This document shows, piece after piece, positions 8,945 to 62,697 of a stretch of 64,000 nucleotides of DNA (the stretch's first letter is position 1; each line of letters starts with the position of its first letter). A model generated the notes under the pieces. It saw only the letters and a list, made by a program, of their open reading frames with translations, was not told the origin of the DNA and did not search any database. Location of the stretch: positions 248,001 to 312,000 of the forward strand of contig NW_002476204.1 of NCBI RefSeq assembly GCF_000189635.1. The letters are read 5' to 3'. The translations under genes were made by a program, and so were the position numbers. The DNA comes from Tetrahymena thermophila SB210. Taxonomy: Eukaryota > Ciliophora > Oligohymenophorea > Hymenostomatida > Tetrahymenidae.

Positions 8945-10645
8945 ATGCACATGCAACAGCATAGCAAAGATATTTTTACATTACAAGAAGCTGTTAGATT
9001 AAAGGTTTTGCTTCAAAAGCATAATAAATCTGAAAAGAATAAAGATGAAATTAATGGATTGTGCAAGGTATTATAATCCTTTATAGTTATTAATTAAGAT
9101 AAAACGGAAGACTTTATATAAATATTTCAAATATTAAGCTAAGATCTTATTTGTTAATGTCTTATTTATTCAAATAGAAAATATTGCTTTTTGATCATTT
9201 GGTTGGCACTTAATTCTACGAATAAGTTATATCTAAACTAGAATGTAAAGAGTTGAAAGCTAACTATAAATTCTTTTAAAATGTAATAAAACAATTTAAT
9301 ACTTTTCTTTTTATGAAATTTTATGCTTAACTGTGTAAAATATTTCATAAACAAATGATTTATTTTGAAAAAAAAAAGATAAAAGACAAAGATTACATAT
9401 ATATTGTACTGCTTGGCTAAGTAGACGTAATTTTAGAACTATAAGACAAACTTACTAATTAAAAGGAAGAAAGGTTAATGAATTCATTTGGCCTAGGTGA
9501 ATTCTTTTGGTGGGATGAAGATTAGTATACTGATCACAGAGGACAAGTTGTAGTTAAGTGTTTGGATGATGCGGAAATAATTTAAATAAACAAATCTTTA
9601 TTTGATTCATACTCTTAAGTAATTAAAAATGAAAGCAAATTTATAAATTTGATTAATCAATTAAATAATTAATTATACAATTAACAAATAATAAATTGAT
9701 TGATTGACTAATTATAAAATTATTTTTTATAAACTAAAAAAAAAAAGAAATTAGAAAAATAAGGTAATTAGTGTATAATTGACTTTATGAAGTAGGTCAA
9801 AGTCTTTGAAAATTTTAGCTAAGATGTCCTAAATGAGATAGTAAGCAAATCTACTCTTAAGTAATTTTAAGTAAATACTCTTATCCTAAGAGAGGAGGAC
9901 CTTCCTGGTTATGTATATATAATACTAAAGGGGTAGTGTACTTGCTTGAAGAGAGTAGCTATGAGGAGATTTGACTATCCTCATTTGGAAGATTTAGAAG
10001 AACTTGTTAAATCACCATCAAAGCAGGAAATGCAAAATGGTGAATTCGATTATAAATTATTTGAAACAAATTTCATAAAACCTGGAGAATTTTTTGGGAG
10101 CAATGAAATAATTAATTAATAAGAAATTGAATATTCTATTCTAACAACTGAGCCAACTGATATATTGATGATACCTCGCCTGGAATTTTTGGGCTTCTAA
10201 TAAAAAATTTTATACCGTAAAATATAAAATATTAATTTTTAAATAATACTATTGTTAAAAAATAAAAGCATTTTAGAAAGAGGCATAAAAAGTTAAAGAA
10301 GAGCTAGAACTAATAGAAATTAAGGGAATGACAAAAAAGGAATAAAAAGAACGTTAATTTTAAGAAATTAGATTACAGTATTACATGAAGAATAATTGGG
10401 AAACATTCAAAAAAAATACAATACAAAATACTAAGCATGAATAAAAATATAACAAAAATTAATTTGATAACTTGCTGAGATAGAAGTTCAACTTTAACAG
10501 AAAGAAGGATTACTTTATTCCTGATGAACAGGCTCATAAAAAAATATAAATGACAGTTAATCTACCACCAATTAATAATAACAATAAAAAAGTTTTTCGT
10601 CCTAATATATTTACCACAGAATCCGTAATAGACAGCAAATTCTGA
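8945..10645 (+). CDS. Protein with two cyclic-nucleotide-binding-like domains (437 aa)
   Basis: Five exons: 8945-9067, 9178-9282, 9379-9618, 9748-10216 and 10269-10645; all phases close to TGA 10643-10645. The first domain (about residues 45-155) has DKDYIYIVLLGQVDVILE, a typical CNB beta-strand pattern, followed by GLGEFFWWDED. The second (about 165-310) has DLPGYVYIILKGQC and IKPGEFFGSNEI. Both keep the Gly-Glu of the phosphate-binding cassette, but the Pro-Arg-Ala-Ala motif that contacts the cyclic phosphate is absent or displaced, so ligand binding is uncertain. The last 125 residues are Lys/Glu/Gln-rich. There is no channel or kinase domain. It may act as a PKA regulatory-like or structural protein; function is inferred from fold only. 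Confidence 0.85.
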
Positions 10646-11351
10646 ATGAAACTAAACAAAATGTAATAAAATTTACTAAAAATTATTAAGTATATTAACA
10701 AATAAATCAATCAAAAATATTAAAAATATATAAAACTTAAGCTATCAATTGGTATTTTCTATTATCTAAAATATTTTATATATTATTTGTGTAAATAATT
10801 TTATTAATTACTATTTATCTGATTCTTTTATTCAAGAAATTAACAATCCTTCTCTACTTCTCTAGAACTAAAAATCTTTTTGTCAATCTACTAATTTGCT
10901 TGATTTAGAAAATAAAACGTTTAAAAAATAAATAGATAATAAGAACTAACAAATTTCCAAAAATTTATAAGTTTTTGTTACACCATTCCGTTTTATATAC
11001 TTGTATGCTTTATACTTAAAGCTAAAGGAATTAATTACAAGTTTTTACTTTATTTATTAAATATAAAAAGAAATGGAAAAGTAAGAATAATAAATAACTT
11101 AAAAAAAAAATCAACTCATTATAGATTGATTGATTCATTCATGTATTTATATTTGTATCAAAAAATTAAAAAAAGCTTCGAAATAACATTTAATTAGCAC
11201 TAACAATTAATTAATAATTATTAAAATATAAGTTTTAAAGGAATTAGTCATTTTATTATTATTATTATTGTTTGTTAATAAATATATATATTTTTTAGAG
11301 TAGTCATTTATTAAAAACTGGTTAATTTTTTATAAAGAGAAGAGCGATACA
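10646..11351. other. Intergenic region
   Basis: Spacer between two plus-strand genes. A short TTATTATTATTATTATTG run occurs near 11253-11270. No gene supported. Confidence 0.6.
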
Positions 11352-14300
11352 ATGGGAAGCTGTTCAAGCATAAATAGTGTTTAGCCTAAATAAGAAGTAA
11401 TAGTTAGAAGAGTCAAGGTTAATCCGGTTAAGATGAAACAGAGAGAAGATTTGAAAAAGTAGAAATTATCAAAAGATAGACTCTATTTAGGAGAAGATAG
11501 GACTGTTGAGGTTTAATTAGATTAATTTCTAATCTAATCTCATTTAATGTAGTCTTTACAAAGGCAAACTTCTACTTATTTAGGAACTTACATTTTTAAT
11601 TCAAGAACTTAAAAAGCTTTCTAGCCTATGCTAAAGAATTTAGTTCTTGATTATTAAGAGTAATTTCCTAAGTGGCTCCTTTATGATGAATAGTTTCGTA
11701 ATGATCAATTGCAAGAGTTTTTATAAAAATGCTAAGAAACAGCTAAATTACAAACTTAAGATGAGCAGTTTTAAAAAGATAAAAATGAGAGCGAAGAAGA
11801 TGATGATGAAGATGAAGACGATGATGACCAAAGTGACGATCAAAGTGATGATTAATCATAAAATGAATCAATGAAATAATCTGCTAGCTAAATCAACAAT
11901 AGAAAAAATAGTAAACCAAATATTGTAAGGAAGAGTAGAGAATTAGATAAGATAAGTTAAGGTGAAAATGATGGCAAGTAGGAAGATGGAAAATTATTGT
12001 CATCAAATAATTCTTAAAGCTAAATAAGAGGAAGTAGTAATAATAATGGCCAAAGTAGGAGAGTAAGCGGCTAGTCTAATAAAAATAACTAATTATTTAC
12101 TAAGACCAAATCTTTTGTAGAAGAAAAAAGCCAGATCTCTAAAAAGAGTGCTGTACAAGATAGTGATAAAGAGAGCGATTAGGACAGCGAAGATGAGCGT
12201 AATAAAACTAATATGCATAAAGTGTAAGAAATATCAGGAATGAGAAGGCCATCGAATCATAAAAATACTTAACTATTATAAAAGCATGTATTTGATGAGG
12301 AGAACTTATTAAGAAGTTCTAATTCTGGCTAAGCAACAGGTAAAAAGAGATAAAGCAATGAAGCTCATACAATGCTTTAAATAGAAAGTAAAAGTCAAAT
12401 TGATTCAAAACCCCCAACAAGCAGACAAAATCGTCCAAGCAATGCTAATAATACTTATGTTATTAAACAATATAATATTGTAAAAAACGAATGGATTCAC
12501 TCAGCTATCTGCAAAACAGAGATTAAGACTCCTTAGAACTTATTAGAGTTTAAAAGGAGGTACTTTTATGAATTTGATAAAATGTCTGCCTTTCTATCTT
12601 ACTTGCTTGCTTTAAAGCGTTAAAATTTTTCAAATTTGCTTACCTTTTCATACATATAGATAGGTGAGACTCAATATAACGGAGGAATGTTTAAGTCTAG
12701 AAAATAAAATTTATAAGCTTTAGCTGCTAATGATGCAAAAGGTAAATAGGGAGATATGCACTAAAGTGTTAAAAGAAGGTAATCACTGCTTAACAAATAA
12801 GATCCAGATGACGAAGAAGATAGCAAATTAATTATGTATATCGATAGAATTTTTCCTGAATGTGGCAAAACATTAGATGAACATATTCACTCAGTAGCTC
12901 CCGGAGAAGATTTAATTAAAATTTGTGCCAGGGCCTTCCAAGTATTTGACACAATTGCCAATACACTTTGTAAAATGCATAGAGCTGGTTTTTCATATAG
13001 AGTTCTAAAGCCATCTATGGTGAGAATATTTGTGTCAAACCGATAAACTCACGTTTATTTAGATAGTCCTGATTTCATTTGGAATGAATAGGAAAGCAAA
13101 TACTTGCAAAGAAGAATATTAAATGAAATAGACTATATGTATTATGATTGTAAGTGCTTAAGTGCTTTGATGGTTTATTATTTCTAAACAGTCTTAGAAC
13201 TTAGAAATAGGAGGAGAGACTCTAATCGTCCAAATATGAATGCTGCAAATTAGCATAACAATAACAATGGTTCTTTAAGTAATGCTAATTCTATGATTGA
13301 ATTTATTGGTAACATAAAATCCCCAAGAAATAATTAGGAATCAATGACTTCAATACAATAAATTACAAATGTTTATAATTTTACAGAATTAGTTGCTTTA
13401 GAGGACTAAAATGAATTAGATTAAATATTAGAAAAAATAAAATTACCATAAATTGCATAAGAAGCCTTACAGTAATTAGTTATAGCAGATTTCCATGCAT
13501 AAAAGCCCATAGAAGAATTTACAGTTAGACTTTAAGGTGTATTAGAAAAAGGGCCACAAACTGCTTTTAAACATGATTCATTAAGTGCTTTTCTCTCATA
13601 CCATGGAGACAGAACGTTAAAAAATGATAATTAGCATGTTTATTTCCGCCGTAAAAACTAAATTCACTTCTATGAATTCGAAAGCAAAACTTTTAAAGTC
13701 ATAAAGCTGATTCGTAAAAAGGCAAAATTCCCTGTTAAGACACATTTAACATTTTCTAAATATGACAACTGCTTCTACTTTTTCGCTGCATCAAACTCAA
13801 ATAAAATTGTCAAAATTCCTTTAAATATAAACACTACAGAGCGTCATATAATCAACTAAAAGTCAGAAGTTATTTTTTTCAAGTCAATTAAAAATATGGA
13901 AATAGAGGATCCACAAATTTTAACAGTTGTACCTGATGATTACACTTTCAGACTATTCGTATTTAATGGTAAAAAAACTACTGATCCTGAGACAAATGAC
14001 AATTATTACAATTCTTACATTGTTCAAGTCTAGTATAAATAGGAATAATTCGGATCTGATGATTGGAATGAATAAATTAGAAGTAATAAGTTTACTCAAT
14101 TAATTTAATATATTTAACTTTAATTAAATAATTATCATTAAACCCAAAAAAAGTATTTTAAAATAAAATTAATATTTATAAAAACAGTTTATGAAGGACC
14201 ACGAAATTATCTTTGGCGTAGGAAAGCATTTCATTTTTATGATCCTCACAATAAATTTATTTACTGCATCCTAGATTCATTAAATATTTTTGAAAGAGGA

Positions 14301-17300
14301 ATTCGTTATTCTTATTTTGACACCTCTATTGAAAAAGGTGACTTTAAAGATGGAAATCTTAGGTTTGCTTGCAGTACAGAAGATGTAAATAATCAATTAA
14401 TTAAATAATTTCTTTAACACAAAAAACCCATTTAATTTAAAAGAAAAATTTAATAAACAAACATTAATTTATTTAATTCAAATAAAACTTGAATACGTTT
14501 AATTAACAAATTTTTTAACTAACTAAAAAAATAATAGATTTTTAATTAGTTTTGCGATCTTAATATGAATTTATCTTAGTTTGAATTTTGTGTAGAAGTC
14601 TAACACGGAGTATTTTTGTTGTCTGCTTCAAAAAATATTTATATTTTAGATTTTAATTACAAGTGTTTTTATTCTTTTAGCACTTTAAAATAACTTTTAA
14701 ATTTTGATAAGAATCATGAGAAATATCCTCATAGACATCAATATGCTTATGAAATTCTAAATCAACCATTTGAAGTAAAGTTTAATAATGCACTCAATTT
14801 AGGTAAGAATGTAGTCTTTCAAGAAGGGATGCTTCATATATTAGGTAGAAAGGAAGTTGAAACTGTTATATGCTCGTACGAGCTTCTTCCAACTTAAGGT
14901 GTTATGATTCTAAAAAAATGTGTTTCTTTACATTCTTTTGATGATATTCTATTAAAATCTCCTAAGCAGCTTTATGATATTTGGACTTTTTAAGAATTTA
15001 AAAGAATTGTTTATGAGAAAGCAGCTGGAGTAGGAGAGGATAAGAATGATACTGGATTAAAGCAAATGAAAACATTGATTAACATTAAAACTATTTAGAA
15101 TGAAGGAGGAACTGGATAGCATAGCAAAATAAGTGGTAGCGTTTTAAGCCCAACACCATAAGCTTAAAAAAGTGTTACTATTTAAAAATTAAAAGCAGAT
15201 GTTGGAGGAAATGAAAAATTAAGTCATTTTGCTACAAACAAGCAAAATACTTTATTTGCTCCATCACCTTAAATATTTGTTAATAAAAATGGCAATATTG
15301 GAAGTAACAATAACTTCTTACTTGCTGGCAATAATACTCCTTAATTAGATTATAAGATATTAACGCCAATGGCAGGTTCTAATCGCTCAAACAATACAAA
15401 TGCTGCCTTGTTAAATGATTAAAAAAACTAGTTATCTAAGCAGGATGAAATAAGTATGAACCAATTTATGGCAAAACTTAACTATCTTAAATAAGTTCCA
15501 TCTAATTTTGATGGAACAGTAGAACAGGATGGAGATTATTAACAAAATTAGTTTAAAATAATTTCATTATATTAACAAACTGGAGAGTATTAACTTTATC
15601 GTATATTACATTAATCATAGCTTTATAATTTGCGTAAAATTGGTATTGGAAGTATCTCTGAGTATGAGTAATTTGTCTAATTACTTGAGCTTAATGCGCA
15701 AAGCAAGTACCTAATTTAAATCAAGCAGTGTTTCCTCATGTAAGATGATAACACTGGAGCTCTTTTTGTCAACATTATCGAGGAAGATAGCGAATGGAGT
15801 CTTCTTGATGAGCTTAATAAGCGCATAAAAGAGTAAAATTATTTTAAAAGCTAAGAGCTTGGTACAATTTTAAAAGCCATTTTCAAGGCTGTTATTTCTT
15901 TATAAACAATTGAGTTAGTCCATGGAAATGTATCACCTCGCCTTATTTATTTCACAGGTAAAGGTTATATTAGACTCGCTGGGTGGTATTTAGAAAATAG
16001 AGAAACTTTTCAAAATGATTTTATAGATGCATGTACACTAATATATCAATTAGCAACTCTTGAATATGACGAGAATTTAACATTGACATCAAGCTACATC
16101 TAAGAAAATTAAGATAAACTTAAAATGTACCCAGGTCTTTCTTCATTTTTGATAAACAATATGCTCATCTTACAAGATGGAGATAATTTAAAATTAGATT
16201 AAATTAGTGAAGATATTAAAGAAATATATTAGAGTTTACAAGTAAGTTACATAAAAAATAACAAGGACACTCTCTCGAGTGATAATAAACGTATTTTTTG
16301 GATAGGATATAATACTAATTACTTAATATCTTGCCATTATGAAGAACTTACCTTTTGTAAAAATGATGTTGTTTATCTAAATAATACATAATATAAATTT
16401 TCTAAGCATAACATGTTTACTTTCGATCATGAAAGAATGATCTACATGACTGGTTCTTAAAAGTAATCAATCATTTATATATACCTTAAAAGTTACTTAA
16501 CTACAAACTATGATATTTATTTATTTATTTATTCATTTTTTGACAAATTTTATTTATTAAATAGGGAAGACTTTAAAACTTAACAACAACCATTTTATTG
16601 TATGGATTTTTCCTTTTAACATTAGGCTAAAATTAAATTAAGATAGTTAAAAGATATTCCTAACTCTATTTTATAACCCTCATTATACTACTGTAATGAT
16701 TTTGTTTACTGTATTGGAGGTTACTAAATTTAATTTGATGGTTCAAAGAGCATTTCAAAAAAAGCGTATAGATATTCTATCAAAACGGAAGACTGGGAGT
16801 AAATTTGTGATATGCCAATAGGTGTTGTCAGTGGCACTGTATTATCTGGAAAAGACTATGCTTTCTTATATGTATTTGGTGGTGTATCTGAGGAATTAGA
16901 ACTTAGAGGAAGAGAACTAAATTACTTAGTCTATGACATTGAGTATGATGAGTGGGCATTGAAAGTTGATCTGTCAATAAAAAGTCCTTTTATTAATAAT
17001 AGATATGTAAAACCTTGTATTGATCATATAGGCAACAATATTTTTGTTTCACTTTATCGCTAAAAAGACTGCATTTATGTTCAGTTCTTTGAATTAATAA
17101 AGGGAGGAATAAATATTAAGTTTAAAATTGAAGACGAAAGAGATGAGTTAATAAAAGAATAAGAAGAAGAAATAGATATATTCAATGACATCAAATATTA
17201 AGATTATTTTAAAACATATTAAGACGATTTATCTTTTATCTTTGTTAGGGATACAATATATTTCCTCGATGAATTTAACAATGCCCTTATAACATTAAAT

Positions 17301-17444
17301 TTTGCTAACTTTAATAATATAAAATACGATAGAACCCCTTGTAGTATCATAGCAAATGAAAAAGAAAATAAAACAGGATTAGATAAACAAATTACCATAG
17401 ATCGCAATACATCAATCGACAGTTTTTACTTTAATGGATACTGA
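11352..17444 (+). CDS. Giant double pseudokinase / kelch-like protein (1940 aa)
   Basis: Three exons: 11352-14082, 14188-14384 and 14550-17444, closing in phase to TGA 17442-17444. The N-terminus MGSCSSINSV is a classical myristoyl-plus-palmitoyl signal. Residues about 40-370 are low complexity with an acidic run near 155-180. A kinase-like domain follows (about 373-740): its catalytic-loop segment reads FSYRVLKPSM, with HRD replaced by YRV (about 549-551) while LKP is kept. Residues about 750-1060 are beta-rich and kelch-like (YEGPRNYLWRR, FHFYDPHNKF). An S/N-rich linker leads to a second kinase-like domain with LVHGNVSPRLIYF (HGN for HRD, about 1434) and IRLAGW in place of DFG (about 1453). 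The C-terminus (about 1560-1940) is again kelch-like, with FVYCIGGYQ, KTEDWEQICDMP and YVFGGVSEE. Both kinase domains look catalytically dead. The order suggests duplication of a kinase-propeller module. Likely a membrane-anchored scaffold; that role is inference. Confidence 0.85.
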
Positions 17445-18134
17445 TTAATTGCAATTGAAAACAATAATTATAAATTAACCCAGAAAAGCATTTAATTAAA
17501 ATCTTCTAATCCTAAATATTAAATTAATCTAATTTATTAACTTAGTTATTTGCTCATTCATTTTCATGAAAATTAACTACGAATATTACCTATCAAAATG
17601 AATATATATAACTACAAATATGCAAAGTAATTTAAAAATTTAATTTATTAAAAACAATTAACTCAAATTAATATCTACATTTATATTTTTTTGTTCATTC
17701 TATTTTGCTAGTTTATATCATTTTTTTGAAAGCATTTAATTCCTTTAATATCAATAAAATCCATAAATAAAATAGAATTTATTAAACATGATTACCCATT
17801 TCGATTGAAAATTAAATATTTTTGTTAAAAATAAAATATCAAAAAAAGAAATTTTAAATTAAAAATTAAATTAATAATGTAGTTTGCATTAAATATAAGC
17901 ACTGAAAAAGACTTAACAGATTGTTTAAATTTATTTAGTTAAAGTATATTCTTCAAATTACATTAAGTATTATGATTATTCTAAAATAAATTGCAGTAAA
18001 TTTTATGTAAAATAAATATTTATTTTAATTTAATTTGATATAAATAAATTTTATTTAAAATATATAAATAAATATACACTTAGTTACTAAACATTTTGGT
18101 AGAATAAAATCTATTGTATAATAAAATAAATAAA
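17445..18134. other. Convergent intergenic region
   Basis: A+T-rich spacer between the 3' ends of the pseudokinase gene and the MFS gene. No gene supported. Confidence 0.6.
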
Positions 18135-20087
18135 TCAACATGATAAATTTACAAGATTCCTAGATTAATCATCTGAATCATCTTAATCTTTTATTTATCC
18201 ATGAAAATTAGAGGTGAATATTTTTTCAATTTAATAATTAGTTAAACCTCTAGTTTCTTTAACAAAATAATATAATAGCATAAATCCTGCTATATTAAAA
18301 ACAAGAGAACTTAAATAAAAGATAAATTAAGCATCTTAATTAAGCAAAGAGGGATAAGTTATCGCTCCTATTAAGATTGAAACCAAAGAGATAAAATTTA
18401 CAGCAGCAACTCCTCTTTCTGGTAATATTTCATTAATTATAACAGGGATAACAGATGACTAAAAGCAAAATCCAATACAAACAATACACATAAAGAGAGT
18501 TATTATGTTAAGCTTAGATGAATATTCAAGTTCAGAAGTCGATGATAGACCTATAAAACCAATTATATAACAAATTTAACCAATAAGTAATATAGTTTTC
18601 CTTCCCATCAATTTTGCAAATGGAATTTAAAAAACTTATGTAAAGAGTAATACAGCCCCAATTATAAGAGTTCTATATTAGCTAATAAACTTATCATTAC
18701 TGTAAGAATCTAAGGCTTTACAGGAATAAAAGAGGAAAAAGAATACACCACTGAAATAACAAAAAAAATTCATAAGGCATGAAATCAATACTCTTCTTAA
18801 ATATCTTGGTTATATCATATCTTTAAGTTTTGTACTACCTTAATTTATTTATTTAGTTAGTAAATAAATAAAAGTAATTAGTAAAATATAATTTTACCTT
18901 CCATCTACCTTGCTTACTTAATTTCGAAGATTTCAAGAATTTTATCAGCCTACTATTCAACATAAAATAATGAAATAATTTTTCTAGCTTTTTCTTTCAG
19001 GTTTTTTTAAAGATAAAAAAATGGTGTGTCTTTTTTAAAAACAAAAAAAAGCAAAATTAATCTTATCGAAGATAGCGCTATTGGTAAAATATAAAAAATT
19101 TCTCCTATAAGTGTATAATTAGGCATACTAGAATCTTCATTCTATTCTTGTTTAATAAAGACTCCCCACACAAATGAAATAGCTATTCCTAAAATTACAA
19201 AAAAATGATGGGTTATTATTACTCTTCCTGTTCCAGAAAAGCAAGGTGCATATTCTAATAAATAAACAGGGATTATTGTAGAGTTAATTCCAACAGACAA
19301 TCCGATAAAAAACCTATAATTATTGATTAATAATAAACTTTAAAATAATTATTTTTAATTTGCATGTATTTTTCAAGAATTTGATCAGATAAAAACTTGA
19401 TTTAATTTACTTAAAAACAACCTAATCTAAACCTTATCTTACTTCTATTTCAAAATATTTTGATAATTGTCAAAAAAAATCAAATTAAATACTATTTTCT
19501 TGAGAAAATATAGGGTAGAAATTATTGGAGAGTGCATTTATTTATATCCAGTATATTATATTTATTTTTTTATATATTTATATATAATAATTTTCTATCT
19601 AAAATGGTTGTTTTTTGTAATTCAAAATAAATTTATTAAAATGATTTAAATCCCAAATAAATTACATTCCTATCATGATGCGAGAATCTGAAACATGTTC
19701 ATCACTACAACAAATTATAAGTATACTTATTAAGCATCCAGCTATCTAAATAAAATCAGCAAATATCAAAATAATTCTTCTTCCTATCCTAAACACTTTA
19801 CTAATGATAATTAAACATCCTATACAACCTCCTAAAGGAACCATACCCGAAAAAGAGGAGTTTATTAAATATTTTTTATCATCAGAATAGCTGCTTTGAT
19901 CAACGATTTATAAAAATAAATTAGTAATTGTAATACAATATCCTATTTCTAATGAGCCTAAGCAGATTGAAAAAATTAAATACTTCAAATTATATTCTGT
20001 TCTTAACTGACTTGTATTCTATAAATAATCATCTTATTAGGCTATACTTTATTGATCAGAAGAAGAAGTATCTCTACTATTATGCAT
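18135..20087 (-). CDS. MFS sugar-transporter-like permease (513 aa)
   Basis: Three exons on the minus strand: 20087-19666, 19313-18898 and 18838-18135, ending at TGA 18137-18135. About twelve hydrophobic segments are visible. Family signatures include YLINSSFSGMVPLGGCIG and RIGRR (the loop 2-3 GR-R motif), then IPVYLLEYAP after helix 4, which corresponds to the sugar porter PVYxxExAP motif, followed by a central cytoplasmic loop. The C-terminal end reads KETRGLTNYQIEKIF, matching the PETKG-x-E signature after helix 12. The family moves sugars or related solutes across a membrane; substrate and membrane cannot be told from sequence. The start is the first ATG ahead of a hydrophilic Ser/Gln-rich tail of about 35 residues. 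It is divergent from the MetRS gene 393 bp away. Confidence 0.9.
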
Positions 20088-20480
20088 TAATATTATATAT
20101 AAATGTTTCCTTTTCTAATAGCTTATTTAAAAAGCTTATGAAGTTAATTCTATTTTTATTATTTGGCTTTGAGATATTAATAATGAGTAATAATTATTTT
20201 TTTTATATTTAATTTTTTAATTACGATATTGTTAATAAAGTATAAGAATATTATGGATAATATTATACCTTTTAGCTATAAGCTGATTGAATAGAAAAAT
20301 TTTGTTTAATTATTTATGTGCGATATTACGGATTCTACTTTCTAAAAATACTTCAAATTAAAAATTATCTCTACAATAAAAAATTTATTGATAAAATTGA
20401 GATGATATCTATTTAATTAGAATTCATTAAAGAACAAAGATTTATTTATTTACGCAATTTCAAAATTAAAAGATTAAAAA
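20088..20480. promoter_or_regulatory. Bidirectional promoter interval between MFS transporter and MetRS
   Basis: Only 393 bp separate the start codons of two divergent genes, so both promoters must lie here. No specific element can be identified; this call rests on geometry alone. Confidence 0.5.
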
Positions 20481-23480: not shown

Positions 23481-26400
23481 TCAAGCTTTACCTATAAAAG
23501 ACCAGTTTTTAACTCTGTTTATTTTTTAATTTTGTTTATTGTAGTCTTAATCCATGTATCTTTACTGCAATTTCTCTTTATTTTCAGTATTAACTATGTG
23601 TTAATTAGCAAATAAAAATTAAGGGGGTTAATATTATTTTTCATAAACTCTATGCCAGTCTATTCCTTCAAAGAATTCGTGAGATTTTATTTATTAAATG
23701 GAATTATAGCCCAGTCTTTCTTTTGGATTCTTTTTTAATAATTACTATAAAAAAAATTTAAAATGAAATTTATTATATTTAAAGCGATTTACTATAATTA
23801 GAGTCTTAGCGGAGTTAGAGAGATATTTAGGCAACTAAGGGTCTTCTGATTTTATTCCACTGTATAATTATTTGATATCTTCATGGAAGAAAGGTGGTTG
23901 TCCTGTTAGCATTTCATATAAAACACAACCTATCCCGTAAATATCTGAGGCCTTTGAGAATCCCTTTCCAAGAAGCATTTCTGGAGATAAATAGGCTGGA
24001 GATCCACAAAAACTCTTAGTTACATCAAAGTCTGCTACATGCTCTTTTGAAAGACCAAAGTCAGTCAATTTGATATGTCCATCAGAACTTATCAATATGT
24101 TTTCAGGTTTTAAATCTCTGTATAAAATATTTTATGAATGTAGATATTCTATTGCAAGGATAATCTCACAAACAAAGAATCTGGCTGTTAGCTCACTGAA
24201 TCTGCTTTCTCTTTGGATGTGCTAAAGTAAAACTCCACCATTGCAATAATCAAGAACCATATATAAGTGATTTGGAGTCTATTTTAAAAATAAATTTTAG
24301 ATTAATTCTCAATATAATAATGTAATTAATACCTGAAATGCATAATGAAGTCCAACCACAAAAGGATTTTTACAGCGCTTTAAAATATTGCATTCAGTTA
24401 CTGCATATTTAAGCTGACGCTTCATAATCAAACTTACTTTTTTCAACATTTTCATTGCAAAAAGTTCTTCAGTACTATTTTACTAGACAAGAAAAACTCT
24501 TCCAAATGAACCTTTTCCTAGTGCTCCGAGGATAGTAAAATCTTTGAATGCTAGCGAGTGACTAATTTCAATATGGAATGATTTTTTTACATGTTTTGCC
24601 AAAATTTCTTAGAAATTCATTCCGTTTTCAATATTGCTCATAGCTTATTACATATTCAAAGAATTATTTTAATCTTTCTCATCACATTTAGCACAGAAGT
24701 GTTACTCATCCTTGATTGTAATTACTTATTAATTAATTTAGATCGTTGAAAACATAGTAAAAAGCTTATCAGTAGATTATTGATCTGCTATTTCTTTTTC
24801 ACGTAGAAAGCTTCTTAATTTTTTATCAACATAATTGGCATATGCAATAGCTTCATTTAATTTATCTATCCAGTGTTCAGCAGCTTCCTTAGTTTTGAAA
24901 GCTATTACCATACTGTTTTAAAAAATAATTCTGACATAAATGAGATCTTTTTGCATAGGCCAGTGACGAGGTAGTAAATCTACATCTAATATATCTGTTA
25001 GGCTTATTACTAATCTATTTTAATAAAAAAAGGTGTTAAAAATTCTTATTTTATATAAAAATTAATTAATTACTGTGGTCTTAACGGCACATCATCTTCT
25101 TCTCTGTACATTTACAAAGTACATGAATCACTGTTAATTTCTAAGAAACGCTTCTAACAAATGCATGGGAAAATATCATGCTGTCTGAATACATAGCCTC
25201 TAATCATAGGAGGCTTTTTAGGCATATCGTTAAAGAAGCTCTAATTATTTATATAAATGACAAAATAAGTAAAAGTGTATTTTTTAAAATTTAATGAGGA
25301 TTTTAAAAAACTAAGTGACTCATGATTTATAAAATTTAATTATTTATTTTTCTTGTCCATCAAATCAAATTAATTAACTAAATTGTGCTAATGAGTATTA
25401 CTCAAATTAAATAAAAGAATTTTTATATGACACAAATGATAATCACATCTAAATATCTTTATAATGCAAATTACATTTTGCTGAAATTAAAAACTTATCC
25501 TGTCACTTAATATAAATCAAAATTAATTTGCTTGAATTTTTACCTTTCTATTTTCGAGATAGTCCATAGCTGTTTATATATCAAATTTTTTAATTTGTCT
25601 ATGTTATCTGAAGAAGAATCTGACTTTTTTAGTGGCTACATCAAAAGGGGATTTTCCTTCTGTTGGATGTTTTAGTCTAATTTTGTTGGAATAATTAAAT
25701 TTAATACTCTAAATAGAATTTAAATTACTCTGGATTAGCATTTTTATCTAAAACTAGGTACTAAACTATCTTAATAAAACCTTTAGCGCTAGCGAGATGA
25801 AGCGCGGTACCTCTTTAAGTAATTTAATCTATAATTAAGTCGTCAGAGTCTGTTAAAACTTTTACTACTTTCAAATTATTTTTAAATACAGCAAGCTGTA
25901 AAGGCGTCCAATCATCTGAAGTTGGTTTATTCAAATCAGCACCTTCAATAATAAGCTTTCTGCAGATATCATCAAACTCTAAGTAAGAAGCATAATGCAA
26001 GCTATTCCATCCATTTGAATCTAACTCTGAAATAATATCTTATTATTTAGTTTTTTTATATTTTTTTAGCAAGGTAGTGTGCAAATCAAGGTATTATTTA
26101 GCTTCTTTCCATTTCCTATCTTGTATAGCCTATAAATAATACAAAAATATATGATAAAGTTATTCTTATAGATAAAAATTAATAGGAAATATAGAATATA
26201 TTTTATTAAATTCTAAATACTTAATATTTACCTTAATAAACTACTATAAAATTTAATAAAACTTCTGTTAAGAGTAACCGTCTTCAGACTCTGAATAGCT
26301 ATGAGGAGTTGTAGCTTTAGTCGATATAATAGAATTGTCAAGAGTTGTACTAAGGATATTAGAATCACTACAAGCATTTAACTAACTATTATCTAGAGAC

Positions 26401-41551: not shown

Positions 41552-44495
41552 ATGGAGGAAGACGGTTAAAATACAAACTAGACTTTAATTCGCTAACTTA
41601 TCGATTCTATTGAAGATAATTTAGCCAATCATCTGCCTTCAAATGCTGTGTTTTTAGCTGAGAGGTTACTCGCTGAATAAGATACAGAAGAAACACGCGG
41701 TATTTTAGCAGAGTGTTACATGGCTGAAAACAAGCATTATAAAGTTTATGATATCCTCAAGCTTTGCAAATCAGAAATGAATAGATACAGATTTGCTTTA
41801 GTTTGTCTTAAGCTTAACAAAAATCAAGGTGAAATCACAATTTAAAACATTTTTATTTTTTTAGGTGATAGTTTGTGCATGTAAATAAAAAACATAGGCA
41901 ATCCAAATAAATGCAAAACGAAACAAAAAAATTTTATTTAATGAGTACTTTAACTCCTATTTTAATTTAATAGACGGAGAAAAAGCTTTGTTAATGGAAA
42001 ATTACAACCCTTAGGATTAAAATATGTAATCTAAGCACAGGTCTTAAATGCTACCAGACTACGTTCCTAACGGTTGCTATGGATTCTACTTACTTGGTTT
42101 AATCTATGAAGGATAATAGAAGTTTTAGGAAGCAAAAAATTATTTTGTGAAGGCGTTAGAATTAAATCCAACATTATGGGTAGCATATGAAAAGATTTGT
42201 AAGATTGGTGATTAAGAAATCCTACCTTACAAGGTGATTTTTTATTTATAAAAAGCTTCTCGATTAATAATACTTAAAAAAAACTATTTAAATAAATAAA
42301 TAAATAGATTTTCTGTGAGACAAAATATAAATAATATATCAATTCAAAGAAGGCTAAAGGCTTGTATAGCTTCAATCCATAAGTTAACTTTTTAAGAAAC
42401 TTCAAAGAATCTGCTGGTTTTTATAATTCAACTGATGAGTAAAAATTACAACTATTGCAAGCAATAAATTAAATTATATAAATTAATATGTTTAAATAAT
42501 TTACTTATTTGGTATTTTAATAAATAGGACTGAAGATGGAAATAGTTTAGCAAATCAAGTGGCAAATAAATAAAGAATACCTAATCAAGCTAGTAATTAA
42601 TAAGTTAAACTACATTATATTTATTTTAAAATGCTCTTTTATAAACAAATAAGAAGATCAGGGTCTTTAAAGAAATCCAGCTCAGTAAGCAATCAAACCT
42701 GGAACATCAAATATTTCTACGTAAGTTTATATAAAATCTAGCTATTATTTTAAGTAAATTATTAATAAATAGTATAGGATAAGTGACTGCAGGAAGAAAC
42801 GATAGTAATTCAAGAAATAATAGTGCAAAAAGGAAAAAATCAGGAAAGTTAGATAATGGTGTAGGCCTTTTAAGCTCTATACCATCACAACCATCTAGTG
42901 GTAGCAGTAACATTTAAGGAGGGTAAAATAGTTAATTAGGCGTAGGTTCTTAACAATTTCCTGCTGCCTCTTCTGCTAACTAATACATTCCTGGTTAGAT
43001 GGGTAATTCAAGTGTTTTGCAATTTGATTCCACATCAGCTACTTTATTAGGTTTATAATAAAAGATGTCTTCTTCTGTTAATAATACAAGTACATCACAG
43101 CAATAGCAACAACAAATATTATCTTAAGGACTTAATTTGGGCATGAATAATCCTAATCAATTTATATCTGCAAATAGCTAATTCTAAAATCTTTAAAATA
43201 CTGTTAATTCGCCTTATATTGAATCTCGCTATGGTGGTAGTTAAGATTATTATTAATTTTAAAAACCTACTGCTGCTATGTAGTCTACTGCTTATAATAT
43301 TTATGCATAATAAGGAGGTGTTAATAAAAATTTACAAACTCCATAGATAAATATGTTACTAAGCAATTAAATGAATTAGCACTAGCTTTAAAGTAACATT
43401 TAGCCTTTCTTTGGAGCTCCTGGATTTTAGTAATAATTGAGTGCAAATGATTTTTCTTAATCTGTTTCCTCTTCAGCAACTCCTATTAGAGATATTTGCA
43501 CTCTTCTTAGAAGATTTGGTGAAGCCTTCTATCATATGTCACTTTACTTGTGCAAAGAAGCTATTGATTATTTCTTTAACCTTCCTAAAAATCATTAACA
43601 AACAGGTTGGGTTCTTACTCATATTGGTAGATGCTATATGGAAATTGTTAAGTACAGTGAAGCTGAAAAGTATTATACTGAAGCTCTAAGAATTGAGCCT
43701 TACAGACTAGAAGGAATTGAGTATTATTCTAGTTGCTTATGGCACTTGAAGAAGCAAGTAGAACTCTGTTATCTTGCCCATTAGGCTTTAGATAAGTCTT
43801 TATTTGCTCCAGAAACATGGATTGCAGTTGGAAACTGCTTTAGTTTATAAAAGGAGCATGAAAATGCATTAAAATTCTTCTAAAGAGCAATTTAATTGAA
43901 TCAACAATCAGCCTATGCTCATGCTCTTTGTGGTCATGAATTTGTGTACAACGAAGACTTTGCTCGTGCTAGAAAATCATTCCAACAAGCTCTTAATCTT
44001 GATCTAAGAAATTACAATGCTTGGTGGGGACTTGGTAATATCTTTTATAAATAAGAAAAATACAATCGTGCAGCTGAACATTTCCAAAATGCAATCAAAA
44101 TTAATTAAAAAAATCCAGTGCTCTATTCATTTATGGGTATGACATTAGCTGCAGACAGAAACTATAGCTCAGCCCTTTAATATTTTGAATAATCAGAAAA
44201 GCTAGACCCTAAAAATGGATTAAATAAATTCTAAAAAGCCAACACTTTAGTAAAATTAGAGAAATACGAAGCTGCCTTAAAAGAATTATAAGAATTAAAT
44301 TTGATGATGCCAAAAGAAGCCCCTATACCTATGCTAATGGGAAAGGTTTATAAAAAGCTTAATAAAACAGATCTGGCTTTGAAATACTTTACAGATGCTC
44401 TAGATTTAGAAAATAAAGATACCCAAAGAATAAAAGCTTTAATAGAATCTCTGCATCAAGAAAATTAAGATTTTGGAGAAGACCTAGAAATTTGA
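41552..44495 (+). CDS. CDC27: Anaphase-promoting complex subunit 3 (Cdc27, 840 aa)
   Basis: Six exons: 41552-41828, 41974-42233, 42308-42438, 42528-42592, 42654-42720 and 42773-44495, closing to TGA 44493-44495. It is a TPR scaffold of the APC/C ubiquitin ligase that drives mitotic exit. N-terminal TPR-like helices (AVFLAERLLAEQDTEETR, YGFYLLGLIYEGQQKFQEA) are followed by a Gln/Asn/Ser-rich linker (about 215-470), as in Cdc27 of other eukaryotes. The C-terminal TPR superhelix is well conserved: TGWVLTHIGRCYMEIVKYS, ESWIAVGNCFSLQ-like APETWIAVGNCFSLQKEHE, NYNAWWGLGNIFYKQEKYN and VLYSFMGMTLAADRNYSSA. The small exons 4 and 5 encode linker only, so their boundaries are the least certain. The second and third-from-start introns use GTGA donors. 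Confidence 0.95.
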
Positions 44496-60586: not shown

Positions 60587-62697
60587 ATGACAGAAGGGAG
60601 TGACTGGATATCTAAGAAAATAGATAAGTTCGTTGTCGTTAACAAAAAATTAGGTAAAGGTGCTTTTGGTACAGTATTTAGAGGCTTTTGCGAAGACGAT
60701 GAGAACAAGCTAGTAGCTGCTAAGCAAATCCCAATCAAAAATATTTCTAACTCTGATAAAATGATCAAATTAATTAAAAGAGAAATCAACAACTTATAGA
60801 AACTTGATAGTAAATGTAATGTCGTTTCTAATATTTTATTAACCTCAAAGTTATTTCTATCATAAAAACTACTTCAAAAATAAAATAAAATCCTATCAAA
60901 GCCACTTTTATTTATCCTCGATTTTTAACTCTTTTTTCTATAAGCCAAACAATAAATGTCGTTTTAGAATCTTACAAAAAATAAAAAAAATGTTTTTTTT
61001 GTAAAAGAGTGTCATTCATAATAAAAAATATTAAAAATCTGTTTAAACTTAAACCTTAAATTTTTGCTAACATCAAAATAATCACTTTGACAAAACATTA
61101 AGCTTATTTTTTTTAAAATTATATTTTTTTAAAACTAGATATTGTCAAGCTATATGATGTTTCTCGTACCCCTAACAATCTTTACATGTTTTTGGAGTAT
61201 TGCATGGATGGAGACTTAAAAGAATACTTAAAAAAGAAGAAAGGTGGTATGTTAAGTGAGCCAGAAGCGATTAAATTCTTCAAGCACATTGTTGAAGGAT
61301 TTAAAGAACTTTAAAAGCATTAGATTATTCATAGAGATATAAAGCCTGCAAACATTATGCTAAGTGGTGGTCGTGCAAAGATTTCTGATTTCGGCTTTTC
61401 ACGTTAACTTGAAGTCGATAATTAAGCTTACATGACACTTTTAGGTTCTCCTCTCTATATGTCTCCACAAATTTTAGAAGGAACAAAATTTTCATCTAAA
61501 TGTGATGTTTGGAGTGTTGGTCTTGTCTTCTACGAAATGCTTTATGGAAAGACTCCTTGGATGGGTACTTCTCAAATAAACTTATTCAATAACATAAAAG
61601 AAAAACCTTTAGTTTTCCCTTCTGATCCTGTTAGAAGCGATAAGGTAAAGAGTTTAATCAAACGTATGCTACAATTCCGTGAAGAAGATAGAATTTCTTG
61701 GTAAGAAGTTTTCGATGATGAGTTAATTACAGGAGATCGTAAACTCCTCGAAGAGAGTGTTCGTTTAATTGAAATTAATAAGGATAATTTAGAGAAATCT
61801 ATGATAGAAAACGGAGCTTATATTTAAACTAACTTAGTTGTTAATTACTTGAAGAATGTTGAGGAAGATAATGAAACAGAAAGTGATGAAAAAATATCAA
61901 ATCAAGGTAAAGATACAGAATGCAATAATGAGTCAAAGTAGACTATCACAGAAGACAAGTATTAGTATGAAGAAAAGGCAGAATAGCTAGTAAAATAGCA
62001 AATAGACAATGAAAAAATGCGTAAAAACATCATGAAAGTTAACGAATATATTCTTTATGAGAGAAATGTTAGTTTCTTCTATAACTTTGTAATTCAAAAA
62101 ATTATCAAGTCATTCAATTCCAACATACTTTCAATTAGCGGTGATCTCTACTTTCGTATTATCTTTGCAATATGTAAGTGTTAAAATATAAATTTGGAGC
62201 GTGTCAATCACATGCTTAAATCCTAAACAAGCGACTTTAATCCTTAATTGTGGAAAAATTACCAATAATCTCGTGAATTCATTAAAACCTAAAAGACCAT
62301 AACCTAGGATATTTACCACTCTAAGAAGTTTTTCTAAGAATTACTTAAAAAGACATCTGAAGTAGTAGAAAATTCCCTAAAAAAAGACCCTTCAAAAGAA
62401 AGTTTAAAGAAATTTTAAGAAGTCATGAATGACAAGTTAACATAAGATTCTAATTTCAAATAGGTTTATTAGCAAACACTAGCAGAATTATTGAATAACT
62501 TGAAGTAATTAGCTCCTTCAACTAATAAAAAGGATATACTGATCATCATTCGTTATATTATGGTATGTCAAAATCCATATAGCGAATTTAACAATTCCGA
62601 TTTCGACTTCAATAAATTCTACGAAGAAATCGATAACTGCCAATTAGACTCACTTCGTGAGGAGATCATTAAGAAGTTAAATTCAATTAGTTAGTGA
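60587..62697 (+). CDS. ULK/Atg1-like Ser/Thr protein kinase (593 aa)
   Basis: Two exons: 60587-60809 and 61139-62697, closing to TGA 62695-62697; the 329-bp intron lies within the N-lobe. Kinase domain about 14-285 with LGKGAFGTVFRG (Gly loop), AAKQIP (catalytic Lys), IIHRDIKPANIML, ISDFGFSRQ, GSPLYMSPQIL and CDVWSVGLVFYEMLYGKTPW. All catalytic residues are present. DFGFSR and GSPLYMSP resemble the ULK/Atg1 group, although APE is changed to SPQ. The C-terminal 300 residues are helical and charged (NEYILYERNVSFFYNFVIQ), perhaps a MIT-like tail as in ULK kinases, which is inference. The window neighbours give no hint of pathway; autophagy or cilium roles are both possible. Confidence 0.88.

Follow-up and report, generated by a model that had tools for sequence, protein, structure and literature searches.

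A degenerate kinase domain joined to a kelch region in one Tetrahymena thermophila protein, possibly a membrane-anchored scaffold

The window analysed here, a stretch of 64,000 nucleotides from contig NW_002476204.1 of Tetrahymena thermophila SB210, includes a single gene for one protein, probably of about 1906 amino acids (Table 1). In the ciliate code (code 6), which reads TAA and TAG as Gln, the open reading frame runs from the ATG at 11352 to the TGA at 17442-17444. The initial annotation gave a product of 1940 residues. Its start and end stand, and exactly 1940 amino acids are obtained when the two clear introns (introns 1 and 2) are spliced out, but removal of a probable third intron, likely overlooked in that annotation, shortens the product to 1906 amino acids. 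Without intron 3, the Pfam propeller matches to PF24981 and PF24681 rise from 24.6 to 32.0 bits and from 20.2 to 25.6 bits, and that to Kelch_6 from 35.6 to 37.6 bits, with PF24996 unchanged (22.7 and 22.6 bits); the E-value against the natural kelch structure 2woz falls from 0.047 to 0.00094 in a comparison in which the query lengths differ too. GC content is 27-31% in the exons, 11-15% in the introns and 16-17% in the flanks, and the TGA counts of the three frames are 0, 10 and 51 in exon 1 and 0, 9 and 31 in exon 3.

Table 1. Features of the gene, in positions of the 64,000-nucleotide window.
Feature	Coordinates	Strand	Basis or remarks
Exon 1 (N-terminus, K1, start of P1)	11352..14082	+	Open in code 6, 910 codons; MGSCSS at first Met
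MGSCSS, predicted acylation site (N-myristoylation at G2, palmitoylation at C4)	11352..11369	+	Sequence; consensus rule
N-terminal region, aa 7-369, acidic and N/Q-rich low-complexity stretches	11370..12458	+	N+Q 21%, acidic 16%
K1, putative pseudokinase domain, aa 370-736, two low-complexity inserts	12459..13559	+	hhalign to kinases of the same genome, weak
P1, beta-rich, aa 737-1105, split by introns 1 and 2	13560..14937	+	FYWIVT 34%; propeller not shown
Intron 1, 105 nt	14083..14187	+	GTAATAAG...AAAACAG; GC 0.11
Exon 2	14188..14384	+	Between introns 1 and 2
Intron 2, 165 nt	14385..14549	+	GTAAATAA...TTAATTAG; GC about 0.13 (0.127); contains in-frame TGA 14490
Exon 3 (end of P1, linker, K2, start of P2)	14550..16462	+	Open frame
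K2, dead kinase domain, aa 1301-1541	15522..16244	+	Kinase-family profile of the same genome, hhalign, motif table
P2, kelch propeller region, split by intron 3, about aa 1542-1880	16245..17360	+	Kelch_6, own kelch profile, PDB kelch chains
Intron 3 (probable), 102 nt	16463..16564	+	GTAATCAA...TTAAATAG; GC 0.15; three of four compared kelch/propeller scores rise without it
Exon 4, including stop TGA 17442-17444	16565..17444	+	Gene model

The second kinase-like domain, K2, is by its profile matches a true kinase homologue, with homology extending across the domain. Against a profile of nine relatives from the same genome, from which K2 itself was excluded, it scored 39.1 bits (E 1.1e-10), a value reached by none of 500 shuffles. 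Alignment by hhalign to kinase profiles of the genome gave probabilities of 94.5-96.1% (for example, 94.8% for an alignment of 143 columns and 96.0% for one of 162), and K2 and the C173 kinase find each other in mutual genome searches (E 0.0037 and 0.0027). When the PDB was searched with K2, 31 of the 32 distinct sequences at E<=10 were kinases, the best of them at E 0.11 and none significant singly. The Pfam kinase models miss K2, as does a profile of six ordinary kinases of the genome (2.6 bits, E 1.1).

K2 has lost all the catalytic motifs examined and most of its activation segment, and by its sequence the domain is dead and cannot phosphorylate. HGN (aa 1434) stands for HRD and AGW (aa 1453) for DFG, the catalytic-loop Lys is replaced by Ser (HGNVSP), and only 13 residues separate AGW from the helix-F Asp, compared with 34-56 between DFG and helix F in 11 comparison kinases. 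The dead kinase followed by a kelch region that had been proposed for this half of the protein is thus borne out, since P2 scores 32.1-37.9 bits with Kelch_6, above the curated cut-off of 25.3. P2 also matches our own kelch profile (E 9.7e-12) and kelch chains in the PDB, and by these matches it is kelch.

The nine relatives of K2 that were read (L048-L056) comprise the C173 kinase and eight further places among the matches of a genome search; C167 was passed over, and when taken up later it gave no usable ORF. DFG is absent from all nine, and six begin with MG. An additional sequence, L086 (on C60), does not reach a start and falls outside the MG count. The HG loop is common to K2 and its relatives, but the loop Asp, kept in eight of the nine, is lost in K2, as is the activation segment. 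The 3' ends of six of them, judged by eye, are low-complexity tails and not propellers. We conclude from these sequences that K2 probably derives from a degenerate kinase group of this genome, mostly MG-starting among the members read. The protein shares with that group an N-terminal MG and a kinase domain matching its profile. It departs from the group's layout, in which the kinase lies shortly after the MG start and the tail is of low complexity: K1, beginning near aa 370, and not K2, is the domain that follows the MG start, and the C-terminus is kelch.

MGSCSS lies at the first Met of the frame and fits a consensus that we take to direct N-myristoylation of Gly2 and palmitoylation of Cys4. 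The motif, together with the MG start of six of the nine K2 relatives, agrees with the acylated N-terminus first proposed for this protein. A myristate on Gly2, probably joined by a palmitate on Cys4, would tether the protein to a membrane.

The first kinase-like region, K1, has weak support as a kinase. In K1, YRV (aa 549) replaces HRD, with Val in place of the catalytic Asp; the catalytic-loop Lys is kept (YRVLKPS). The YRV, like HGN and AGW in K2, agrees with the initial annotation. The DFG position is DSP or SPD, depending on the placement of a single gap, and a helix-F-like Asp, placed by eye, lies 28 residues past DSP. Against kinases of the same genome, hhalign gave K1 scores of 31.3 or 29.4 (E about 0.001) over only 32-49 aligned residues, a weak match. 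For one of these two comparisons 20 loci were fetched, and two (L062 and L077) were dropped because they had no motif-bearing ORF. With broader kinase profiles K1 scored above every shuffle, 200 in one run and 300 in the other, and its best profile score was equalled by one of 122 other ORFs. The aligned part runs from helix E through the catalytic loop, in one of the runs as far as the next strand pair. With a motif of the right kind in the right place, and one in 122 other ORFs as good, kinase homology of K1 is only suggestive. Of the two kinase-like domains claimed, K2 stands on its family profile, but K1 has no match among Pfam or PDB kinases. A search of the genome with the K1 core found no paralogue; the only other match (C97, E 0.76) lies, by eye, inside a transporter-like ORF and was dropped.

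A kelch-like region had been proposed behind K1 as well. P1 is beta-rich (the content of F, Y, W, I, V and T is 34%, and 37% in P2), yet it matched no kelch or propeller profile, and no relative was detectable in searches with Pfam, our own kelch profile and hhalign. The suggestion that the protein is a duplicated pseudokinase-propeller module was examined by aligning its halves. Neither K1 with K2 nor P1 with P2 aligned better than shuffled sequences, and because the two halves do not align, the view that they are copies of one module is unsupported.

AlphaFold2 models made from single sequences covered three of the four segments proposed for modelling (K1, K2 and P2). Mean pLDDT was 36.7 for K1 (aa 370-763) and 29.6 for K2-P2, in which the probable intron 3 was read through. 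K2-P2, backed by sequence in both parts, served as a positive control for the fold; this control failed, and the failed K1 model is therefore uninformative.

We consider it somewhat probable that the protein is a membrane-anchored pseudokinase-kelch scaffold of about 1906 amino acids and not an enzyme. Acylation of the N-terminus would hold it at the membrane, the acidic, N/Q-rich region that follows would act as a flexible spacer, the dead kinase domain or domains would serve for binding or allosteric control, and the P2 propeller would dock partners. K1, should it have a kinase fold, is without a catalytic Asp. A fuller version can be entertained only tentatively: a dual-acylated signalling platform with two dead kinases, a beta-propeller after each, descended from a ciliate group of N-myristoylated degenerate kinases, its kinase folds purely structural.

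It is rather unlikely that the pseudokinase-kelch module is confined to the second half, K1-P1 being an unrelated alpha/beta region in which the likeness of YRVLKPS to a catalytic loop is accidental. Besides the missing Pfam and PDB matches, the equal score of another ORF and the failure of the halves to align, the profile of the K2 relatives scores K1 no better than shuffled sequences, 121 of 499 of which do as well, or gives it 1% probability by hhalign. The margin over shuffles with broader profiles, however, and the nature of the aligned part, helix E with the catalytic loop, and a helix-F-like Asp beyond, speak against this alternative.

K1 could also have kept an unusual activity, either nucleotide binding or a non-standard transfer. 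The retained Lys of YRVLKPS, and an AICK that may hold the strand-3 Lys, would suit such a function, which the Val at the catalytic Asp, the altered DFG position and the uncertain fold make improbable. That two neighbouring genes are present, the first stopping at TGA 14490 and the second beginning near ATG 14565, is very improbable: this TGA is in frame, and is the sole further one, but it falls inside predicted intron 2, whose ends (GTAAAT...TTAATTAG) and GC content are those of an intron, and only about 70 nt would be left between the genes. A gene in decay, which the degenerate motifs and the lack of a close paralogue in searches of the genome might suggest, is hardly credible given the long TGA-free exons, the strong frame bias and the sharp GC contrast between exons and introns.

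If the scaffold reading is correct, kinase folds have been reused as parts of a membrane-bound scaffold, and a ciliate has an MG-starting degenerate kinase group that we did not meet in literature searches of titles and abstract openings. The scaffold reading predicts Gly2-dependent membrane binding and no catalysis.

No named family with this exact order of domains was found in Pfam or in the literature, which was searched by titles and abstract openings and leaves absence in print unproven. The order remains unmatched in these searches, as first claimed, but kinase-kelch fusions are already known, as are ciliate-expanded kinase families with probable pseudokinases; to us the protein is made of known parts, newly combined. 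For Ichthyophthirius, kinase families specific to ciliates have been noted, along with probable pseudokinases (PMC3341644), and one might guess that L048-L056 are among them. Among trypanosomatids, Tb927.5.3150 is a kinase with kelch domains (PMC8519429), and one kelch-bearing kinase is entered in the first species column of another survey, that of L. major if the order of the title holds (PMC1266030). These likewise combine kinase and kelch within one protein; Tb927.5.3150 differs in having predicted transmembrane and signal segments, and a double pseudokinase was not met in the trypanosomatid descriptions taken from these two sources. The kelch-phosphatases PPKL/BSU1-3, reported to occur in Tetrahymena (PMC3143110), are a similar fusion of a signalling domain with kelch, but the domain is a phosphatase and not a kinase. 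A radial-spoke candidate is also a kelch-repeat protein (PMC12399478), with no link to the present gene seen in that account.

Relatives of K2-P2 outside the genome were sought in viral contigs (12 pattern matches) and genome contigs (22), and none was confirmed. Within the genome, another gene, at 512.8-515.2 kb of C13 (L057 and L028), has a kinase domain followed by kelch repeats. It is a single module, unlike the present protein, and its kinase is apparently active, because HRD, DFG and the strand-3 Lys are all present. Six kelch-like places were also seen in the genome beyond the Kelch_6 list, on C114, C91, C179, C130 and C39 and at C81:1132563.

The focal gene, encoding a putative pseudokinase-kelch protein that begins MGSCSS, has a frame that is open only with TAA and TAG read as Gln; code 11 gave zero ORFs of 100 aa within window positions 9000-20000. 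TGA occurs 0/10/51 times per frame in exon 1 and 0/9/31 times in exon 3, and the exons are richer in GC (27-31%) than the flanks (16-17%) or the introns (11-15%). Removal of the first two introns reproduced the 1940 aa of the initial annotation. A third intron, absent from that model, is likely, and splicing it out as well gives 1906 aa.

Features of the focal gene (window positions) and of a second kinase-kelch gene in the same genome
Feature	Position	Strand	Length (nt)	Remarks
Focal gene	11352-17444	plus		
Intron 1	14083-14187	plus	105	GT...AG ends
Intron 2	14385-14549	plus	165	GT...AG ends; encloses in-frame TGA at 14490
Intron 3 (probable)	16463-16564	plus	102	GTAATCAA...TTAAATAG; from kelch/propeller scores
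C13 kinase-kelch gene (L057 + L028)	C13:511500-516283			kinase, then kelch repeats

The second kinase-like domain (K2, residues 1301-1541) is a kinase homologue, as had been proposed. A profile of nine kinase-like relatives from the same genome, with K2 left out, matched it at 39.1 bits (E 1.1e-10), a score reached by 0 of 500 shuffles, and hhalign gave 94.8% over 143 columns against 16 own-genome kinase sequences (the nine relatives included) and 96.0% over 162 columns against 34 sequences. Across the genome (101 Mb, 445 contigs), the single match to exon 3 elsewhere was a weak one (E 0.0037) to a kinase-like gene on contig C173, which as query recovered K2 at E 0.0027, ranking 40th of 49 matches. 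The C173 gene matches Pfam kinase PF00069 (E 1.3e-17), and eight of the nine relatives pass the Pfam kinase cut-off, the C134 exon falling below it at 16.0 bits. Pfam kinase models had no match to K2 itself, and a profile from six ordinary own kinases missed it (2.6 bits, E 1.1). Kinases made up 31 of the 32 distinct sequences found with K2 in the PDB at E<=10, the best (E 0.11) being individually not significant.

The catalytic loop of K2 is HGNVSPRLI, where HRDxKPxNI is expected, and AGW stands in place of DFG, both substitutions being as initially annotated. From AGW to the helix-F Asp there are 13 residues, compared with 34-56 from DFG in 11 comparison kinases (the C173 and C13 distances span a hand-joined junction). 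Because of these three features K2 is, on its sequence, a dead kinase domain.

The region after K2 (P2, about residues 1542-1880) is kelch by its profile matches, in agreement with the earlier reading. Against a cut-off of 25.3 bits, Kelch_6 scored 32.1 when the entire exon was searched and 35.6-37.9 when P2 was taken separately, and an own-genome kelch profile gave E 9.7e-12, the top control score among 400 shuffles of four segments being 6.2 bits. P2 was scored unspliced, with an alternative intron at 16492-16569 removed, and with intron 3 removed; in that order the bits were 24.6, 27.7, and 32.0 for PF24981, 20.2, 21.8, and 25.6 for PF24681, 35.6, 37.9, and 37.6 for Kelch_6, and 22.7, 23.7, and 22.6 for PF24996, which thus lends no support to intron 3. 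The E value of PDB kelch chain 2woz against P2 went from 0.047 to 0.00094 after intron 3 removal, with query lengths also differing.

Unlike the second half, the first half of the protein is not well founded as kinase plus kelch. Its putative kinase-like domain (K1, residues 370-736, YRV for HRD) had no match to Pfam kinase models or PDB kinases. Broad kinase profiles gave an hhalign E of about 0.001 and a probability of 18-20% (41% for the K1 core piece), with a score above 200/200 and 300/300 shuffles; the alignment covered helix E plus the catalytic loop, extending with the 16-sequence profile into the strands that follow. With the smaller profile K1 also outscored 120/120 other ORFs of the genome, and with the larger one 1 of 122 other ORFs (L014, with no Pfam family at E<=0.01) reached 29.5 to K1's 29.4. 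The profile of six ordinary own kinases gave 7.1 bits (E 0.043). By hmmsearch, K1 scored 8.0 bits with the 16-sequence profile (1/492 shuffles as high), 5.3 with K2 added to it (2/495), and -0.3 with the nine-member profile (121/499); without inserts, the values were 11.7 (0/496), 11.9 (0/500), and 3.9 (11/499). Against the K2 relatives alone, hhalign probability was 1-2%. Based partly on order and motif, K1 probably has a kinase fold.

The following region (P1, residues 737-1105) had been called kelch-like, a reading that did not hold up: its composition is of beta type (34% FYWIVT, with 37% in P2), and no match was found, kelch/propeller profiles included. K1-K2 and P1-P2 alignments were at shuffle level, so the proposed duplicated module was not recovered. 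Sequence establishes the gene, the kinase homology of K2 with its lost catalytic motifs, and the kelch nature of P2; the full original picture of two pseudokinases and two propellers is less likely than not. We infer the folds of K1 and P1 and acylation of the protein, which on the preferred reading would act as a scaffold tethered to the membrane.

N-termini were read for nine K2 relatives, namely C173 itself plus eight out of the nine loci ranking next in the C173 search. Six start with MG (MGAKES, MGAAGP, MGNVTA, MGNQLG, MGASKS, and MGQGKS) and three do not; MGNVTA has an earlier in-frame Met, and MGNQLG and MGASKS start on a separate exon assumed to be part of the gene. The myristoylation pattern fits five of the six, MGAAGP having Pro at a disfavoured place. 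The chance of six in nine is 6e-8 to 2e-5 with Gly at 3-8%, a post hoc figure that ignores relatedness. DFG is found in 0/8 tabulated relatives and HGD is kept in 7/8; the ninth, C134, has HGD and LLDQ. These loci (L048-L056 with L079-L085) form a degenerate kinase group with DFG in 0/9, the HGD loop in 8/9, and an MG start in 6/9. CSS[FY] and SD[IV]FSLG motifs are present in only part of the group. No propeller was seen by eye in the downstream stretches of six relatives, whose tails are Q/N-rich or low-complexity. A further relative at C60:78983-80400 (minus strand; L073 + L086) is also degenerate, since its catalytic loop is THQSLRLDTI.

A Kelch_6 genome search gave 39 matches at 27 hand-counted sites including the focal gene; these counts are lower bounds, with six more kelch-like places outside the Kelch_6 list. 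Reading at least 1.5 kb on each side (less for C309, at a contig start), we found a kinase domain at one of the 26 other sites, on C13. That gene has ALK, HRD, and DFG and a Kelch_1 match (E 2.3e-13), and the exon for its kinase C-lobe, taken by itself, reaches 26.8 bits, under the Pfam cut-off of 31.7. The genome thus holds a kinase-kelch gene whose kinase is apparently active, judging from these motifs. It resembles the focal gene in having a kinase domain followed by kelch but differs in keeping HRD and DFG.

Kinases bearing kelch domains are known in trypanosomatids (PMC8519429, PMC1266030), and kelch-phosphatases in Tetrahymena (PMC3143110). Ciliate-specific families are reported to take in a large share of ciliate kinases, and 38 ungrouped kinase genes of Ichthyophthirius to be likely pseudokinases (PMC3341644). 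None of the papers found in literature searches describes the focal architecture, going by their titles and the opening lines of their abstracts.

Elsewhere in the window are two ordinary kinases, at 23502-24548 (minus; YRD/DFG) and 60608-61962 (plus; HRD/DFG). Just upstream of the focal gene lies a cyclic nucleotide-binding domain (9703-10437; PF00027, E 3.5e-9). A gene resembling sugar transporters occurs in pieces at 18138-20423 on the minus strand (PF00083), and 42537-44492 encodes a protein with tetratricopeptide repeats.
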